In this document: positions 4,014 through 16,566 of the stretch, in pieces
Layout of the letters: each line of letters starts with the position of its first letter
How positions within the stretch are numbered: position 1 is the stretch's first letter
Assembly (NCBI GenBank): GCA_026395915.1
Contig: JAPLXU010000009.1
Location: 1 to 39,281, forward strand
Reading direction: 5' to 3'
Length of the DNA stretch: 39,281 bases
Origin: Candidatus Nomurabacteria bacterium
Lineage (GTDB): Bacteria; Patescibacteriota; Minisyncoccia; Phycocordibacterales; UBA9973
Translations under genes and position numbers: made by a program
The notes under the pieces: model-generated
Told to the model about the DNA's origin: nothing
Seen by the model: only the letters and a program-made list of their open reading frames with translations
Database searches by the model: none

Positions 4014-4784
4014 TTATTTTTTATATGTTTTTATGTGATTATCCATAATAATCTTTGACTCTTTTGAATAACACCACCAGTCGGGATCCCGACTATGTTC
4101 GCCTACCTTTGATATCTTAACAATAATTGGCTTAAATCCAAAATATTTTTCCACTTCATAAAACTTCGGCAGAATAATTTCATCTATAAAATTCTTTTCA
4201 GATTCAAGCAGGTCATAATCATCAAAATAGACAGTATGACAGATAGCAAAAGATAAAATTGAAAAATAGTATTTTTCTGGAGTTCCACCACGTCTCTTCA
4301 TCCATTCTGATAAATCAATGGTTCTGTCTTTTATTATAGGAAACATTTCTTGTAAAAAAAAATGATGAAAATCAACCAGATTCTCTCCCCACAAAGTTTC
4401 AAGGTCACACATCCTTTTCCCTCCTGAACCATTGAAATCAACTATTCTTTCTTTTACAACATAATGCTGAAGATTTTTATTTATGCCGTTAGAAAATCTC
4501 AAATCGCAAAGCATATATTTTGTAAAATTACCGGCATGAAACTTATCCTGCGAATTTTCAAAACCAATCGGCTTAAGATCTGCTTGCTCGCATAAATCAA
4601 GAAATCTTTTGAATTCGCCGTCTGGGGTGCAAATACATCGCCAGATGAGTCCATGGGGTTCATCTTTTAGAATCTCTGGAAAATCGCCTTGCAATTTCTC
4701 CTCCACCTTTTTACGTAACTCCAAATCTGCCCAGCGTTTCCTGATTATCTCCCCCGCTTCTTCGATTGGAGTATAGATATCCAT
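4014..4784 (-). CDS. Conserved unknown protein, paralog A (256 aa)
   Basis: I do not recognise a named family. The protein is soluble and without signal peptide. It aligns along nearly its whole length with the product of 15760-16566: both share an N-terminal YTP, a GDxPEIL element, a TPxxExKRFLD element, DKF, VDF, ETLW and DFH motifs, a W(M/L)K(R/K)xGG element and a C-terminal KPxIV strand. The conserved Asp, Glu, His and Trp suggest a real binding or catalytic site rather than a scaffold. Its gene lies 3 nt after the Cys-rich anchored protein and 5 nt before the histidine kinase, so the three are co-transcribed. Confidence 0.72.
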   Translation of the reverse strand: MDIYTPIEEAGEIIRKRWADLELRKKVEEKLQGDFPEILKDEPHGLIWRCICTPDGEFKRFLDLCEQADLKPIGFENSQDKFHAGNFTKYMLCDLRFSNGINKNLQHYVVKERIVDFNGSGGKRMCDLETLWGENLVDFHHFFLQEMFPIIKDRTIDLSEWMKRRGGTPEKYYFSILSFAICHTVYFDDYDLLESEKNFIDEIILPKFYEVEKYFGFKPIIVKISKVGEHSRDPDWWCYSKESKIIMDNHIKTYKK

Positions 4785-5777: not shown

Positions 5778-5800
5778 GCGAGATATATGATATATCTTGC
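5778..5800. promoter_or_regulatory. Inverted repeat in divergent intergenic region (operator or attenuator candidate)
   Basis: Arms gcgagatatat and atatatcttgc around a central g pair along their full length with one G.T wobble, and on the plus strand a T-run (ttttta) follows. It sits between the minus promoter of 5757 and the plus operon starting at 5866. The symmetry suits a dimeric repressor; the stem followed by T-run also resembles an intrinsic terminator, so attenuation is an alternative. Confidence 0.4.
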
Positions 5801-5865: not shown

Positions 5866-6603
5866 ATGAAAAACAATCATTTAAAGTATAAATCAGCTTG
5901 GCTGATTGGATCTAGCGGTGAAATAGGAGAAAGTTTCTCTAAAATCCTCAGTGAATATGCTGACAAGATTTCATTGTGTGATATGAAAAACTCGTCTGAA
6001 ATAATAAATAAAGGCAACAATTTTTGGAAGATCGATTGTGCTGACGATAAACAATTCAAAAAATTTGCAGACGAATCAGTTGTAATGTTTGGGTCTCCAG
6101 ACTTAATGCTATTAACTGCAGGCTATGTCTTCTCTTCGGATCTAACCAATACTTCATCTAATGAGTTGGATAAAATTTATTCAAATAATTTTAAGTTGGT
6201 TTCAATTGCTCTTAAATTATTTTTTGAAAAATGCTCAAAAGATGTCAATATCCCAAAAAATATAATTGTTGTGAGTTCCAATGCTGGATTAGAACCGAGA
6301 CCAAATCAACCAGTCTATGCTGCAATGAAAAGTGCAATTAATAGTCTAGTCAAATCACAAGCAGCCATGTGGGGAAAATATAATATAAAAATTAATGCCA
6401 TTGCTCCAGGTACAGTTGTAGTCAATAGAAATATTGTATCTTTAAAAAAGAAATATCCTGATTTTCCTATTGACCTTTCTCGTCCGCTAGGACGAATATC
6501 TTTTCCAGAAGATCTTCATTCTATTTGTAGATTTTTACTTGACCAAAAACTTCTAATGACAGGCCAAATTCTAGTTATTGATGGCGGAAGCAGTTTAACT
6601 TGA
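5866..6603 (+). CDS. SDR-family oxidoreductase, first gene of the 5866-9804 operon
   Basis: 245 residues with a complete short-chain dehydrogenase core: nucleotide-binding GSSGEIG (15-21), LTAG in place of NNAG, a catalytic Ser138 in VVSSNAG, Tyr151 and Lys155 in YAAMK, PG after strand 6, and a C-terminal GQILVIDGG. It is FabG-like and should use NAD(P)H to interconvert a hydroxyl and a carbonyl. The ORF could be opened upstream at 5797, but that adds 23 residues before the Rossmann strand and crosses the palindrome; ATG 5866 is preferred. The next gene starts 19 nt downstream. The AT-rich codon use is shared by all genes of the operon. Confidence 0.85.
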   Translation: MKNNHLKYKSAWLIGSSGEIGESFSKILSEYADKISLCDMKNSSEIINKGNNFWKIDCADDKQFKKFADESVVMFGSPDLMLLTAGYVFSSDLTNTSSNELDKIYSNNFKLVSIALKLFFEKCSKDVNIPKNIIVVSSNAGLEPRPNQPVYAAMKSAINSLVKSQAAMWGKYNIKINAIAPGTVVVNRNIVSLKKKYPDFPIDLSRPLGRISFPEDLHSICRFLLDQKLLMTGQILVIDGGSSLT

Positions 6604-6622
6604 ATTAAAAACAACTATTGTT

Positions 6623-7948
6623 ATGAATAAAAATCGCCTTAAAGGAATAAAAGAATCTGCTTTGTTAACCAAAAAATTTAAAAGGAAATTGAAATTTTGT
6701 TTTAACAGTTGTTTTCATGAAAATGAGGCACTTCTTTTGTGTTGGGGAAGCATGGCTCGTGAAGAAATGGGACATTTCTCAGATTTAGACTTAATTTTGT
6801 TATTTTCTAATAAAACCAACAATAAAGAAATAAGGGTTTTCTTTGACTGCTTGAGTAAAAAATTTAAAAACCGCATTGATCTATTAGAAGCTTATGACTT
6901 AAAAACATTAGCTAAAATCGGTTCCATAGATGGAACAGATAGACAGGCAATATTGTTAGCCAGACCAGTTTGTGGTAGTTCAAAATTGAGAAAGAACTTT
7001 TCAAATTTACAAAATACTTTTCGTAATCAAACGCGTGAAAACACAAGAGAAATTATACACACATGGATTAGTCTTTTTTCCGTTTCAAAAAATATATACA
7101 CAAACAAAATTAATAATCTTAAATTTGGTCGTGGGTTCTTAAGACATATAATTTTTATTTTTTTGATTGTAAAATTATTTTTTGATAAAAAGAATAATAT
7201 ATGGTCAACACAAAAAGCAATACCTATTTTTTGTAAATCAGAAATGACAGATGATAATATAAATACAATTTATCTAACATCACTAAATTTTATTTTAGAA
7301 CTTAGAAATGCAATTCAATTTTTTATGCAAAAAGAAAGTTATTATATAGACGACATTTTATTAAAAGAGATGACAAAGAAATATAAATTTGATATTGACT
7401 CTCTTAAAAGAAAGTTGAGGGACAATCAGTCAAGTATTATTTTTCTTGAGAAAGATATAAGTGGAGTAATTTCTAAACTTGTATCTAAAAATTACGGTTC
7501 TGAATTTCAAAAGCATGCAAATCTCTTAAACATTTTAATTGATTTTGAAAAAGAAATTAGCCTTGATATAGAAAAAACAATAATGGATACCAAACTAGAG
7601 ATTTTACTTATTCTTCTTGCTCATCGAAGTAAGAATTCGCGAACTCTAGAAAAACTAAGAGTGGATAACATGAAGAATTGGTATATTATACATGGAATTG
7701 CAATAAATCCGCATAGCAATCCTGAGACTTTGTTAAAACTCATAAAGCCTGAGGATAAAATTAAAAATCATGTATATAAGCTATATTATGGTTTTGCGTG
7801 GAGAAATATTAGATTATATGTAGCAAAAAATAAAATGGCTGATAAAAAAACATTAAATTACATAATAAATCATAAAAATAGTCGACAAATGGATAGGGAC
7901 ACAGCTAAATACAGTCTTGCAAGTAAAAAATTAATTTATGTAGGATAG
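6623..7948 (+). CDS. GlnD-like nucleotidyltransferase with C-terminal helical repeats
   Basis: 441 residues. Residues 35-62 carry a polymerase-beta-type nucleotidyltransferase site: WGSMAREE then SDLDL with metal-binding D54 and D56. A helical region (about 110-260) includes LKFGRGFLRHI, which resembles the KxGxGGLRDI segment of GlnD. The C-terminal 120 residues look like short helical HEAT/LRV-type repeats (HRSKNSRTLEKL, NPHSNPETLLKL). GlnD proper also has HD and ACT domains, which are missing here, so this is probably not a PII uridylyltransferase. The partner may be a protein or a metabolite of the same operon. Spacing to the next gene is 10 nt. Confidence 0.72.
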   Translation: MNKNRLKGIKESALLTKKFKRKLKFCFNSCFHENEALLLCWGSMAREEMGHFSDLDLILLFSNKTNNKEIRVFFDCLSKKFKNRIDLLEAYDLKTLAKIGSIDGTDRQAILLARPVCGSSKLRKNFSNLQNTFRNQTRENTREIIHTWISLFSVSKNIYTNKINNLKFGRGFLRHIIFIFLIVKLFFDKKNNIWSTQKAIPIFCKSEMTDDNINTIYLTSLNFILELRNAIQFFMQKESYYIDDILLKEMTKKYKFDIDSLKRKLRDNQSSIIFLEKDISGVISKLVSKNYGSEFQKHANLLNILIDFEKEISLDIEKTIMDTKLEILLILLAHRSKNSRTLEKLRVDNMKNWYIIHGIAINPHSNPETLLKLIKPEDKIKNHVYKLYYGFAWRNIRLYVAKNKMADKKTLNYIINHKNSRQMDRDTAKYSLASKKLIYVG

Positions 7949-7958
7949 ATATAAAATC

Positions 7959-9164
7959 ATGATTGAAAAACATTGGTATTGTAATAAATGTGGGAAAAAA
8001 AATCAGGATGGTTTTAAAAGCGAATTTAATTTAATTTGTCCGATATGTTCTTATTCGCTTGAATTGATTTATGAAGGAAAAATAACTTGGAATGATTTCG
8101 ACAAAAATTTAAATGGTGTAATAAAATACGCTCAAATTATACCCGTTTCAATAGAAAATTTAAAGAAAATAACTGACAATAGTACACCAGAGTTTACTAA
8201 GCCTATAGAATCAAAGCAACTGGCGAATTTTTTAGGAGTTAAATCGGTTCACCTCTTGACTTCTATTGGTGGTCCATCTGGAACTTTTAAAGATAATGAG
8301 GCTGCCGTTGTAATTGCTAAATGCTTAGATTGGAATTTAAATCAAAGACTTTCTTGGCATAGTACAGGAAATACTGCACGAGCTTATCGAGAATATGCAA
8401 TTAAGGCCGGTTTTAAAAGTGATTCTTATTTTCCATTAAGCTGTATTAATAAATTTAAAGGTGCAACAGAAGATAAGAATAACAATTTAATTGCGTATAG
8501 TGGATCATTTCAAAAAATCTCACATATTGCAAAGGAACGAGCAAAAAATAACAACACCTTACATCTTGCCCCGCTTCCTTGGAAGATAGAAGGCAAGGCA
8601 ATTCTAGCTTACGCTATTTTTGAAAATCTTCCAGAAACGAATATAATTGTGCAGACTATTGCTGGTGGATATGGCGTATTGGGTTTGCAATTAGGTATTA
8701 AAAGGTTACATCAATTAAATCTTTTAAGGAATGAAATAAAACCTAAATATAACCTATTCCAAATTGAGGGAGCTGACACGATAGCGAAATTAATGACTCT
8801 TAATAAAGAAATCAGTGAAACCGATTTAAGATTACCAGTCAATCCTTTTGAACCCACACTTCAATCAACAAATCCACTATCAACTTTTAATCTAATAAGA
8901 AACATCATCCTAGAAACAAATTCAAATATAGATTCAGTAACAACCGAAGATGTTATTTCTTATAAAACTTTTTTCGAAGAAGAATGTCATTCTCTTGGTA
9001 TTGATATATCTTTTGAGGATGAAAAATCCCCATTCATCTCTTGGGCAGGATTAGTTAATGCTAGCAACAAAAAAAGATTCTCTTCCTCAGATAATATTGT
9101 AATTATTATAACCGGTTCAAAAAGAAGAAATGGCGCCGTGCCAAAACCAAGTTTAATTATTTAA
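7959..9164 (+). CDS. Threonine-synthase-like fold-II PLP enzyme with N-terminal zinc ribbon
   Basis: 401 residues. A zinc ribbon (C8, C11, C27, C30) precedes a fold-type II PLP domain. GGPSGTFKDNEA (104-115) contains the Schiff-base Lys111, STGNTA (135-140) is the substrate-anchoring loop, IEGKAILAYAI parallels threonine synthase, and AGGYGVLG replaces the usual GNGGN phosphate loop. The C-terminal region (NPLSTFNLIR onward) also follows threonine synthase. The enzyme should act on an amino acid with a leaving group at the beta or gamma carbon, perhaps O-phosphohomoserine. No homoserine kinase or dehydrogenase is nearby and the neighbours are unusual, so a non-threonine product is plausible. 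Next gene follows after 1 nt. Confidence 0.8.
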   Translation: MIEKHWYCNKCGKKNQDGFKSEFNLICPICSYSLELIYEGKITWNDFDKNLNGVIKYAQIIPVSIENLKKITDNSTPEFTKPIESKQLANFLGVKSVHLLTSIGGPSGTFKDNEAAVVIAKCLDWNLNQRLSWHSTGNTARAYREYAIKAGFKSDSYFPLSCINKFKGATEDKNNNLIAYSGSFQKISHIAKERAKNNNTLHLAPLPWKIEGKAILAYAIFENLPETNIIVQTIAGGYGVLGLQLGIKRLHQLNLLRNEIKPKYNLFQIEGADTIAKLMTLNKEISETDLRLPVNPFEPTLQSTNPLSTFNLIRNIILETNSNIDSVTTEDVISYKTFFEEECHSLGIDISFEDEKSPFISWAGLVNASNKKRFSSSDNIVIIITGSKRRNGAVPKPSLII

Positions 9165-9165
9165 A

Positions 9166-9804
9166 ATGAAATTAAAAATAATAATACCTTCTATATTTAG
9201 CTTTGATTTAAAAATAATCAGTAAAGATATAGAAAAAATACTCTCCAGTCAAGAAGCTAATGCGATCCATTTCGACGGATTAGATGGACTTGCTGAATTG
9301 AAAAATCTAATGGAAAAATATAAGACTATAGCTGATATACATTCATTAACGGATAGACCATTAGAAGATCTTAAAAAGATAATAAAAATGGATATGAATT
9401 TAGATGTCCGCCTTGCCATGCATCTTGAAACAAAAACAGATGTAAATGAATTCATTAATTTAGCTCGCGAAAATAATATCTCTCCTGGGTTGGCTATAAA
9501 GTTAAGCACACCTATAACAGAAAAATTTAAATCATACTCAGAATTTGATTATTTTCATCTAATTTGTAACGGCGAGCCAGCTAATCTTAAAGCGTTTCAA
9601 TATAGTGTTTTCGAAAAAATATCCGCATTACGTTCAATTATTCCTGACGCTCAAATCACTCTAGATTGTGGTATTAAAGAGGAATATATTACACCCGCTG
9701 TTAATGCAGGAGCTACTAATTTGATTATCGGTTCAGCAATATTTAAAAATATAAATCCATTTGAAACTATTAAAAAATTTAATAGGATGATACATAAAAT
9801 ATAG
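9166..9804 (+). CDS. Ribulose-phosphate 3-epimerase-like TIM-barrel protein
   Basis: 212 residues with the order of strands and active-site residues of ribulose-5-phosphate 3-epimerase: PSIFSFD at the start, IHFDG with H35 and D37, ADIHS with H59, MHLE (H86), and LDCGI with D167, then AGATNLIIGSAIF. The four metal and acid/base residues of the family are therefore kept. The PGFGGQ loop that holds the sugar phosphate in true Rpe is replaced by a segment around NGEPANLK, and length is slightly short, so the substrate is probably different. ATG 9166 is 1 nt after the PLP gene stop, indicating coupled translation. Confidence 0.75.
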   Translation: MKLKIIIPSIFSFDLKIISKDIEKILSSQEANAIHFDGLDGLAELKNLMEKYKTIADIHSLTDRPLEDLKKIIKMDMNLDVRLAMHLETKTDVNEFINLARENNISPGLAIKLSTPITEKFKSYSEFDYFHLICNGEPANLKAFQYSVFEKISALRSIIPDAQITLDCGIKEEYITPAVNAGATNLIIGSAIFKNINPFETIKKFNRMIHKI

Positions 9805-9813
9805 CTAAATTTT

Positions 9814-10404
9814 ATGTGGAAAAAATATTTTGAAAAAAATTTAAAAAGAAAACCTAGAGAACAATTAGTCCGAGCCTTTTCTTTTTGTTCGAAAAAGGAA
9901 AATGCTCTTGATCTAGGCGCGGGCACTCTTATCGAATCAAAATTCCTTATCAAAAAAGGATTTAAAAATGTCGTCGCTGTTGATAACGCGCCGGAAGTGA
10001 AAAAATTTGTTAAGAATTTTGACAACAAAAAACTTGTCTGCAAGAACATTTCTTTCCAAGAATATGATTACCCTAAAAATACTTTTGATCTAATAAATTC
10101 TCAGTTTTCACTTTATCTTTATGGCAAAAAGGGGTTTAACGCTTTTATCAAAAAAATAAAAAACTCTTTAAAACCCGAAGGTATTTTTGTAGCTCAATTT
10201 TTGGGTGTAAAGGACAGCTGGAATGGCAATCTAAAAAGCGCGACACCAAAAGCCAGTTATGTTTTTCATACAAAGAAACAAACTCTTGATTTATTGTCGG
10301 GCTTAAAGATTTTGGAATTTATAGAAGAAGACGAAGACGGAAAAACTATTTTGGGAGTAAAAAAACACTGGCATATTTTTTATTTTATCGCACAGAATAA
10401 GTAA
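9814..10404 (+). CDS. Class I SAM-dependent methyltransferase
   Basis: 196 residues. ALDLGAGTLIES (about 32-43) is motif I for SAM, VVAVDNAPE gives the acidic end of strand 2, and FDLINSQFSLYLYG is motif IV. The C-terminal part holds the remaining strands of the Rossmann-like domain. It resembles TehB/UbiE-type small-molecule methyltransferases; the substrate is not evident. It starts 9 nt after the epimerase-like gene on the same strand and may be the last gene of the operon, although its codons are a little less AT-rich, so it could be an independent neighbour. Confidence 0.8.
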   Translation: MWKKYFEKNLKRKPREQLVRAFSFCSKKENALDLGAGTLIESKFLIKKGFKNVVAVDNAPEVKKFVKNFDNKKLVCKNISFQEYDYPKNTFDLINSQFSLYLYGKKGFNAFIKKIKNSLKPEGIFVAQFLGVKDSWNGNLKSATPKASYVFHTKKQTLDLLSGLKILEFIEEDEDGKTILGVKKHWHIFYFIAQNK

Positions 10405-11816: not shown

Positions 11817-14366
11817 TCAATATCCGACTGCCCGATAGAATCTTGCAGCCGAATTTGATGATTGCTTGTCCACGAAAGGCACTGTGCCGTTCGTGTTGAC
11901 GAGAATCGCTATTGTATTCCAATCAATGAGGTTCGTGGAAGTTTCAACCGAATAATTGAAACCCGAGGGTCCTGTCAGTTTGAGCAGGGTGAATCCGTCC
12001 GCGTCTTTTCCTGTAAAGGAGAGACTGAACGAATCTGGTACGCCGACAAAACTGAGCGCAACGTTGGTCACGATAACGCTTGAGATGACATCCGTAAACG
12101 AGTCGAGACGGAAACCAAGCGTATGCGTCCCATTGGTAACAGTCAGAGGAATCGAGTAAGTGTAATGCCGAAATCCGGGCACCACTACCCTCTCGTCGAT
12201 CGTCCCAATTGCATTTGTGTCCCAGTAAACTGACAAAATGCCTTCTGCTCTCTCGGCGCTCTCGAACTCCGCGTCAAAAGAAACGGAATTAATCTTGTCA
12301 GTAATATTCAATACCGTTGCCAGCCACGCCGGCGTAGGTGATGTGTCAGAAACATTCGTTGTCAACGTCTTTGAGGAACGCAACTGCGAAGAACTGGTAC
12401 TAGAGAGAATGAGAAATGAACCGTAGTTCTCAATCGAACCAGTGTCGCTTGTGACCGACGGAGTTTGGCTGAAGTTTACTGGCAGACTCATTGATGAGAG
12501 AGCCTCGTTGTTTATCGTATAGCACGGCGTATCCGGAGTTCCAAGAACACGGATAGGATCTGAATACGCGGAATAATTTGCCTGCGCGAAGTCCCAATTT
12601 CCGCCCTCTTTCGAGAGAGGAAAACCGAAACCTTGCGAACTCTGTTGCACATTCGGCGGAATGGTATTCATGTAGAACTCGACCGGCCAACTGTGAGACG
12701 AAACTGTCTTGTAACACTTTTCGACAGTCTCTTTCCATGATGAACGGTATGTATCAAATGAAACTTTGTTCGGATCAAGCCAAGTTACTTCCACGCCATA
12801 AGCATGGTCGAGTTCGCCTTGAGTTTTGCCGACGACATCATCGAATGTCTCTGTATCGAACGAAAAATAATTGTCCGCCCAATTCGCGACTAGTCCATAC
12901 TTGCTTCTACCACCATAAGTGAATCCGACATATGGGTCGAGAAAAGTGGTATGAACAACCGTATTTACGTTCGCGCATTTGATATTTAACGCCGCGGCTT
13001 GAATAACTGCCGCCCCAGCACTGTGACCAATGAGATGGATATGACTCCATCCCTGATTTGCAAGATAGTTGCCTAGATTGCCGCCTTCTTTCTCAGCGCT
13101 GTCAAGAACATCGCCTTTTATAAGTTGTGGAATAGTCTGCCACGCCTTATCTGTCCACTTGTACGATTCAACTTGCCAATTGTTTAGACCTTGACTTGCG
13201 ATGTTGGCGCGGATGAGTTCCACCATGGTGTCCACCCAGTCTGGATTAGGAGGCAATGTCTGACCGATTTCTTTTCGTATCCATCCATGTGTCACCAAAA
13301 CCAAGCTATCCTTCCCCGGTTCCATTGCTGGACAGTTTCCGTAGGTCGGTTGTTCTGGTTGTGCTTCGATTACTTGCTTCCATTCGGAAATCGAAGACAA
13401 AACAGGACGGAACCCTATGACATCGTCTTTACCAGTTGAAATGTAATAGTGATAACGGTCTGTGGCTCTGCAACGGAACGCGTAGTCTCCCCAACTTCCG
13501 CCCCGAATTATACGATACGAGATAGATTCTGGTCCTCTGGGATCAATTTGTGAATCACTTGAATATAGATCATACCAATCCCAACACCATTCCCATATAT
13601 TCCCTGCCATATCGTAAAGACCGTAACCGTTCGATGCAAAGTAGCCAACTGGACTTGTATAAGGAAACATACCATCATTGAAAAATGGATGAAACCCACG
13701 AGAAGAACTGACATCGTAGGCATAACTACTGGAACTATAATAGTTCGCATAGTCATGTGTGATGTTATCTGTGTCGTACCATGGAAAACGATGTCCGCCT
13801 GACCCACCCCGTGCTGCTTTCTCCCATTCCGCCTCTGTTGGTAAACGATAGCCTGTGTTCCAGTTCACTGAACTATTATCTATGTTCACTTGTCCAGTGC
13901 GATACACCATTGTCTTCGCCGAACTCGTGTAATACGCTGGCGACTTTCCTTCTTTCTCACTTCTTGCATTACACCACTTCACACAATCATACCAACTCAC
14001 CATCTGCACTGGATGATCGGTGTCCTTGCCTGAACCAGCATTATCAAAAATGTAACCGTGCATGATTGCCCAATTGTAAACGTCATTCCACAACGCTTTT
14101 GTCACTTCATACTTGCCGATGTAAAAACCGCTTACGTATACTGTATGAACGGGAAGTCCTTCTGAAAACTCAGCAAAAGTATCACCCATCACAAAGTTGC
14201 CCGGAGCAACATATGCCATGCTTGCCTGATCTTCTGCCGTTGGTATTATTATCTCAGTGTTTGCTTTGACTTTTGAAGAGCGAGCTGATTGACCGAATGC
14301 TTGTGTTAAGATTATCGCCATGACAAAAATCATGGTCGCCATTACTATGATTCTGTTTCTTTTCAT
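11817..14366 (-). CDS. Secreted FGE/SUMF1-like domain fused to an alpha/beta-hydrolase (lipase-like) domain
   Basis: 849 residues from ATG 14366; an upstream ATG at 14435 would put 23 polar residues before the signal peptide and is rejected. A signal peptide (about 1-26) is followed by a formylglycine-generating-enzyme-like domain (VAPGNFVMGDT, GYRLPTEAEWEKAARGG, NIWEWCWDWY, RIIRGGSWGD, GFRPV). Then comes an alpha/beta-hydrolase with VTHGW and nucleophile elbow GHSAG, and a beta-rich tail. The tail ends in a motif (VETSTNLIDW ... RFYRAVGY) that I associate with secreted Verrucomicrobia-type proteins. Base composition is clearly more GC-rich and codon use differs from all neighbours. It is monocistronic with its own terminator. 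Horizontal acquisition is likely; function may be extracellular lipid or glycan hydrolysis. Confidence 0.8.
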   Translation of the reverse strand: MKRNRIIVMATMIFVMAIILTQAFGQSARSSKVKANTEIIIPTAEDQASMAYVAPGNFVMGDTFAEFSEGLPVHTVYVSGFYIGKYEVTKALWNDVYNWAIMHGYIFDNAGSGKDTDHPVQMVSWYDCVKWCNARSEKEGKSPAYYTSSAKTMVYRTGQVNIDNSSVNWNTGYRLPTEAEWEKAARGGSGGHRFPWYDTDNITHDYANYYSSSSYAYDVSSSRGFHPFFNDGMFPYTSPVGYFASNGYGLYDMAGNIWEWCWDWYDLYSSDSQIDPRGPESISYRIIRGGSWGDYAFRCRATDRYHYYISTGKDDVIGFRPVLSSISEWKQVIEAQPEQPTYGNCPAMEPGKDSLVLVTHGWIRKEIGQTLPPNPDWVDTMVELIRANIASQGLNNWQVESYKWTDKAWQTIPQLIKGDVLDSAEKEGGNLGNYLANQGWSHIHLIGHSAGAAVIQAAALNIKCANVNTVVHTTFLDPYVGFTYGGRSKYGLVANWADNYFSFDTETFDDVVGKTQGELDHAYGVEVTWLDPNKVSFDTYRSSWKETVEKCYKTVSSHSWPVEFYMNTIPPNVQQSSQGFGFPLSKEGGNWDFAQANYSAYSDPIRVLGTPDTPCYTINNEALSSMSLPVNFSQTPSVTSDTGSIENYGSFLILSSTSSSQLRSSKTLTTNVSDTSPTPAWLATVLNITDKINSVSFDAEFESAERAEGILSVYWDTNAIGTIDERVVVPGFRHYTYSIPLTVTNGTHTLGFRLDSFTDVISSVIVTNVALSFVGVPDSFSLSFTGKDADGFTLLKLTGPSGFNYSVETSTNLIDWNTIAILVNTNGTVPFVDKQSSNSAARFYRAVGY

Positions 14367-14481
14367 ATTTCCGTCTCTTTCGTTTTTATATTCTATTGTC
14401 AAGGACAACTTGCATTTTGCAAATTGTTTTAACAATGTCTTAGTCTTATATTCTCATCAAAAACTTTAATCGTCAATATTT

Positions 14482-15759: not shown

Positions 15760-16566
15760 TTATTTTTGGGGTATTAAAGTTTTTACTTTTGGGTGATAAG
15801 AAGTCCAAAGTTCATCAGTTTCAATATCCATAGGCTCGAGAGGCACTATAAGAGGCTTAACACCAACCATATTTATCACGTTTTCCACAGACGGTAACAC
15901 AACTCCTTTTGTAAAATCGCCCTCAGAATTTTTTGATGTCAAGAAATTTTCAAATAAAACACCGAAGCAAGAACAAAGCAGAAAGAAGTTTGTATAATAA
16001 CAAACAGCCTTACCCCCATTTTTTTTAAGCCAAAGGGAAGCATCATAAAAATTGTCACCCCCCATATTATATTCATGAGCATTAAATAATTTCTTGTGAA
16101 AATCATTTAGTGGTTCTTTCCAAAGAGTTTCTACTTCCCGTAATTTCTTTCCATCAAATTTGGCAAAATCAACAACTGTTATTTTTTCAACATTATAATC
16201 GCCATTTTTACTGCATTTTCTTTGTATGTACAATTGTCCGAGAGAATGCTTGAATTCATTATTCGAAGTGAATTTGTCTTCATGATATTCAAAAATAACC
16301 GGATGGAGGCCATCTTCTTTAGCCATGTCTAAAAACCTTTTTGTCTCATGATTTGGAGTAGCGACTTGTCTAAAAAGAATAGCGCATTTTTTTTTTCTTA
16401 AAATCTCCGGTATATCCCCATTTAGCAACTTTTCAACTTTTCCAACGAGTATCTTGTCTTTTCTGCGTTCATCCAAAAGCTTCAGCGCCTCGGAGAGCGG
16501 AGTGTAAACGACTTGATTAAAGATATTATGGTCGTCCATTATTGCATTGTAATCTCCGATTTTCAT
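15760..16566 (-). CDS. Conserved unknown protein, paralog B (268 aa)
   Basis: Soluble protein, clearly homologous to the 4014-4784 product. Shared elements are YTP, GDIPEIL, TPNHETKRFLD, DKF, VDF, ETLW, DFH, WLKKNGG and KPLIV. It has extra cysteines in the middle (LLCSCFGVLF) that paralog A lacks. The start is ambiguous: ATG 16566 or an in-frame ATG nine codons later (16539); homology to paralog A begins only at residue 22. A TGT-TATAGT box about 40 nt upstream could serve it. It leads an operon with the EamA transporter and the PPase-like gene. Confidence 0.7.
   Translation of the reverse strand: MKIGDYNAIMDDHNIFNQVVYTPLSEALKLLDERRKDKILVGKVEKLLNGDIPEILRKKKCAILFRQVATPNHETKRFLDMAKEDGLHPVIFEYHEDKFTSNNEFKHSLGQLYIQRKCSKNGDYNVEKITVVDFAKFDGKKLREVETLWKEPLNDFHKKLFNAHEYNMGGDNFYDASLWLKKNGGKAVCYYTNFFLLCSCFGVLFENFLTSKNSEGDFTKGVVLPSVENVINMVGVKPLIVPLEPMDIETDELWTSYHPKVKTLIPQK

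Follow-up and report, generated by a model that had tools for sequence, protein, structure and literature searches.

What do four adjacent metabolic genes contribute to a Candidatus Nomurabacteria genome of only 812 kb? Most amino-acid biosynthetic pathways are missing from CPR genomes of about 0.8 Mb, and the present one (96% complete) carries a closely packed set of genes for an SDR oxidoreductase, a nucleotidyltransferase (NTase), a fold-II PLP enzyme and a protein resembling ribulose-phosphate 3-epimerase (Rpe) on its contig C15, which is the window, i.e. the whole stretch of 39,281 nt analysed here (Table 1). All four ORFs are open up to their stops and follow one another with gaps of 19, 10 and 1 nt; an alternative TTG start is present upstream of the SDR ORF, at 5797. 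The GC content is 29.6% in the four-gene block versus 37.8% in the remaining window, and GC3 is 20-24% in the operon versus 40-43% in two other window genes. Thus, the spacing and low GC from which the original prediction had deduced one operon are confirmed, and the catalytic residues claimed for all four proteins are present. Pfam assigned the proteins to the SDR, NTP_transf_2/Polbeta (weak), PALP and Ribul_P_3_epim families, and none of the four scored above its NCBIfam cut-off. Together with recurrence elsewhere (see below), the spacing and these scores support a single operon of diverged, non-housekeeping enzymes. The operon is real, rare and conserved. Its enzyme families are known, but we found no described pathway that combines them: no paper was found on threonine synthase with triosephosphate isomerase (TIM) in gene clusters, and broader literature searches gave no matching pathway either.

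Table 1. Operon genes, other window genes and related genes in further records mentioned in the text
Feature	Length (aa)	Position	Strand	Sequence features
SDR oxidoreductase	245	window, 5866..6603	+	PF13561/PF00106 above cut-off; S138, Y151, K155
Nucleotidyltransferase, GlnD-N-terminal-like, without HD/ACT	441	window, 6623..7948	+	PF01909 just above cut-off; D54, D56, D86
Fold-II PLP enzyme, distinct threonine/cysteate-synthase-like subfamily	401	window, 7959..9164	+	PF00291; K111; EPTLQSTN motif
Ribulose-phosphate-3-epimerase-like protein	212	window, 9166..9804	+	PF00834 66.5 bits (cut-off 21.1); H35, D37, H59, D167
Methyltransferase		window, 9814-10404		
Protein without significant Pfam match	256	window, 4014-4784	-	TPxxExKRFLD, HxxKF
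Protein without significant Pfam match	268	window, 15760-16566	-	TPxxExKRFLD, HxxKF
Large ORF		window, 11817-14435	-	GHSAG
Other Rpe homologue of the host genome (contig C7)		L045, 1492-2199	+	EFDLMV
Distant NTase relative in G241	464	L049, 1324-2718	+	matches in NTase domain
Different threonine/cysteate-synthase-like PLP protein in G609		L044, 4832-6121	-	

The PLP enzyme belongs to a subfamily of which 14 members were aligned. K111, E114, N138, T139, K165, P205 and E211 are invariant in all of them, and the motif EPTL(Q/N/W)(S/T)(T/A)N is common to the whole set. The positions aligned with the Asn-Ser pair of threonine synthase, which we take to contact the phosphate of O-phosphohomoserine as part of an Asn-Ser-x-x-x-x-Arg set, are occupied by A/T/S and an invariant Pro in 14/14 sequences; the nearby Arg stays K/R, and the complete threonine-synthase set is therefore lacking. 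This pattern suggests an acidic substrate other than O-phosphohomoserine. By sequence profile, the best PDB match was to threonine synthases, nearer than cysteate synthase, and the curated cut-offs were reached neither for threonine synthase (65.3 vs 421 for PRK05638; 43.3 vs 167.1 for TIGR00260) nor for cysteate synthase (33.9 vs 324.9 bits for TIGR03844). An AF2 model (pLDDT 88.5) was structurally closest to CapA2 of Alistipes finegoldii (PDB 9k3c; Z 38.0 over 378 residues), which is annotated as cysteate synthase, followed by threonine synthases (Z 27-34). In a tree with a single outgroup row, the window enzyme grouped with actinomycete ones (100/100), with that of the distant CPR genome G160 next (94/95). 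No relatives were found in viral contigs, and the matches in phages and plasmids were distant threonine-synthase-like proteins only. A different threonine/cysteate-synthase-like PLP protein, in G609, lies in a surface-polysaccharide-looking cluster, beside asparagine-synthase-like, glycosyltransferase-like and sulfotransferase-like genes.

The Rpe-like protein exceeds the Pfam family threshold and has the metal ligands listed in Table 1. At the equivalog level it falls short (TIGR01163, 61.7 vs 212.6) and, in agreement with the predicted loss of the PGFGGQ loop, it has HLICNGEPANLKAF at the position of the canonical NPGFGGQ loop. For the NTase, which had been described as a GlnD-like protein without HD and ACT domains, Pfam matches were limited to the NTase region (with weak matches to PF18765, DUF294 and GlnD); HD and ACT gave no Pfam match and the GlnD helical domain PF08335 a sub-threshold one. 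It thus has the first part of the NTase, HD and ACT set that defines GlnD. The three Asp residues are present, D86 also in the G160 homologue, and the structure model, built from two sequences, had a pLDDT of 47, too low for a structural comparison. NTase relatives were absent from the viral contigs and plasmids searched. The distant relative in G241 is directly followed by a histidine-phosphatase gene. The SDR (90.4 bits against PF13561) is a Rossmann-type enzyme with the Ser and Tyr-x3-Lys residues, and the SDR similarity is no more than that shared by generic FabG-like SDRs.

Family searches of the host genome identified the operon PLP enzyme as its sole PALP-family (fold-II) enzyme and found no homoserine dehydrogenase, which was present in 14/14 control genomes; the original prediction had noted the lack of threonine-pathway neighbours. 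A second Rpe homologue lies on contig C7, directly after an RpiB gene. These observations argue that the operon proteins are neither a housekeeping set nor devoted to ordinary threonine synthesis. The C7 homologue apparently has Asp (EFDLMV) for the metal-ligand His of DVHLMV, which is kept in the operonic copy.

We searched 380 genomes of the phylum, a class-level sample of 384 and, more widely, samples of the orders around G160 and G716. Among the 380, the PLP subfamily was found in the window genome (G000) and G160, two weak matches representing another threonine-synthase-like protein; the full-length NTase was present in the same two genomes, the G241 match being confined to the NTase domain. 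In the class-level sample, G716 was a further carrier of the PLP subfamily and no additional NTase was found, and the order-level samples gave no further PLP-subfamily carriers. With three carriers among several hundred sampled species, the distribution is rare and patchy. G160 (LaPlata bin-3090) has a tight operon in the order PLP-RpiB-SDR-NTase, with every ORF overlapping its successor. It keeps three of the window families, namely the PLP enzyme (35% identity, 2e-70), the NTase (30%, 4e-56) and the SDR (33%, 5e-28), and has a non-homologous RpiB, scoring above the curated RpiB cut-off, in place of Rpe. Co-occurrence in other genomes, on which the original prediction could have failed, was therefore observed. 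In G716, a third CPR lineage, a single 925-residue protein (record L020) comprises Rpe, PRK-type kinase and PLP domains. The NTase is associated with the module in two CPR genomes only.

Outside CPR, PLP enzyme, isomerase and SDR were also found together in other phyla. The scan of the genome collection yielded 14 loci, including the G160 record itself. In Ardenticatenaceae (L014), TIM, PLP and SDR genes precede a large gene that carries an NRPS adenylation motif; in two Aminicenantes loci (L016, L018), an NRPS/PKS-type gene is followed by TIM and PLP genes, and in L016 by an SDR gene after these. Scytonema (L015) and Desulfonema (L017) have the order PLP, SDR, inositol-phosphatase family and TIM, with an APS kinase gene upstream in the former and a sulfotransferase gene in the latter. 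TIM thus adjoins the PLP enzyme in L014-L018, as does the SDR in L014-L017. In Streptomyces, Catellatospora and Actinoplanes (L007-L010), whose clusters contain adenylation-domain genes, a conserved barrel protein is encoded directly upstream of the PLP gene. Because its profile comparison was negative for Rpe and weak for TIM, confined to the C-terminal phosphate-binding region, we left it as 'TIM-barrel-like, unclassified' and excluded it from the partner statistics. L011 and L013 have no isomerase beside the PLP gene, and the L019 record is cut off. Counting each lineage once (window, G160, G716, L014, Aminicenantes, Scytonema/Desulfonema, L011 and L013), an Rpe, RpiB or TIM partner was near the PLP gene in 6/8, with a chance probability of ~4e-7 under a 5% base rate, both this rate and the grouping being our assumptions. 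The adenylation-domain codes of the NRPS genes, as read by eye, pointed to no clear substrate. The recurring core is a PLP enzyme, a phosphosugar isomerase and an SDR, in which the isomerase/epimerase slot is filled by Rpe here and by RpiB or TIM elsewhere.

The interpretation offered previously held for the operon, its divergence and its conserved association, and failed for the downstream methyltransferase, proposed as a tailoring step. This gene has a 66% homologue in the same-genus genome G132, which lacks the four operon genes, DNA similarity to G132 starts at 9809, just beyond the last operon stop, and the G160 operon has no such gene. The methyltransferase may be co-transcribed with the operon and lies outside the conserved unit. 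Neither the PLP subfamily nor the NTase occurs in seven genomes of the same genus; this patchiness and the GC shift indicate that the operon was probably acquired horizontally. Elsewhere in the window, the 256- and 268-residue proteins are mutually alike by eye and are possibly paralogues of an undescribed family. The large ORF encodes an N-terminal part of the sulfatase-modifying/formylglycine type, together with a lipase-like motif (by eye); with a GC content of 46-47%, far over the window mean, it is likely another import.

Our preferred reading, which we put forward tentatively, is one horizontally acquired biosynthetic operon with a three-enzyme core and a nucleotide-adding NTase. The isomerase and SDR would remodel a hydroxy-carbonyl compound of three to five carbons that bears a phosphate, the SDR setting the oxidation state. 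The PLP enzyme would then act on an amino acid whose leaving group is acidic (phosphate-like), catalyzing its beta/gamma elimination or replacement and so yielding a building block of a non-standard amino-acid type. A nucleotide could be placed on a hydroxyl by the NTase, which would either activate the substrate for the PLP step or cap the product; a kinase or sulfotransferase-type gene may take its slot in other organisms, as gene neighbourhood suggests. For the isomerase, C4 tetrulose phosphates are attractive candidate substrates since both TIM- and RpiB-family enzymes use them in erythritol catabolism (PMC5992420) and threonine-synthase relatives act on a C4 amino acid phosphate. The step order and substrates are conjecture, the product and the NTase role are likewise inferred, and the NTase may instead be a regulator.

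This last option belongs to an alternative that we consider unlikely, in which SDR and isomerase break down a polyol or sugar phosphate obtained by scavenging, a hydroxy-amino acid phosphate undergoes deamination or elimination by the PLP enzyme, and one of these proteins is regulated by the NTase in a GlnD-like manner. Proteins are the usual targets of modification by GlnD relatives, in keeping with such regulation. The erythritol-catabolism layout, with a dehydrogenase and TIM- and RpiB-family isomerases, also resembles the module (PMC5992420). However, the window operon has no transporter or sugar kinase, the NTase lacks an HD domain for nucleotide removal, and NRPS/PKS genes adjoin the related modules, which favours biosynthesis. 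A cysteate/sulfonate pathway is quite improbable: here the PLP enzyme would form cysteate from O-phosphoserine and sulfite, the SDR would catalyze a subsequent reduction, as happens in sulfonolipid synthesis, and the other two genes would be accessory. CapA2 as nearest solved fold, ahead of threonine synthases, and the APS kinase and sulfotransferase near two PLP relatives fit this pathway, as does the combination of cysteate synthase and 3-ketocapnine reductase in sulfonolipid synthesis, which runs from phosphoserine via cysteate synthase and an acyltransferase to that reductase (PMC11211663). On the other hand, the operon has no acyltransferase, the conserved isomerase is left unexplained, the sequence profile is closer to threonine synthase and the cysteate synthase score is far from its cut-off. 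Ordinary threonine synthesis with pentose-phosphate enzymes adjoining by chance agrees with the best profile match and is very improbable given the missing homoserine dehydrogenase, the threonine synthase scores far under cut-off, the second Rpe and an association conserved across phyla.

Returning to the biosynthetic operon, a broader but doubtful proposal is that CPR and the NRPS/PKS-type clusters of several phyla share a previously undescribed biosynthetic module. In it, an isomerase of any of the three families, an SDR and the PLP enzyme would start from a sugar phosphate of central metabolism and make amino-acid building blocks of a new class, and the hydroxyl could be activated interchangeably by nucleotidylation, phosphorylation or sulfation. 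Exchange of non-homologous isomerases places a strong constraint on the module's chemistry, and since the isomerase family differs between lineages, the chemistry may differ too. That a small CPR genome keeps an imported, intact four-enzyme pathway suggests a product worth keeping, probably an unusual small molecule and perhaps one serving interaction with a host cell. It can be sought in culturable carriers of relatives beside NRPS/PKS-type genes, i.e. Streptomyces gelaticus, Actinoplanes cyaneus, Scytonema and Desulfonema magnum.

Compared with known systems, the PLP enzyme shares fold II, the SxGTFKD lysine motif region and the STGNT loop with threonine synthase (ThrC), but differs in its A/T/S-Pro positions, extra EPTL motif, curated scores and lack of pathway partners. 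The fold match to CapA2 of the sulfonolipid pathway includes the N-terminal region, whereas identity is 16%, the gene partners are different and a phosphosugar isomerase neighbour is conserved. The Rpe-like protein has the family and metal ligands of ribulose-phosphate 3-epimerase, but not its phosphate loop or equivalog score, and coexists with a second genome copy. The NTase has the GS-x-AREE-x4-SDLDL motif and following R-x-D/DGTDRQ region of the N-terminal part of the PII-uridylyltransferase GlnD, but another C-terminal part in place of HD/ACT, and is operonic with metabolic enzymes. Finally, the erythritol/tetrose-phosphate isomerase sets (EryC, EryH/TpiA2, EryI/RpiB) likewise combine TIM- and RpiB-family isomerases acting on related C4 phosphates with a dehydrogenase (PMC5992420); they have neither PLP enzyme nor NTase, and the analogy is functional only.
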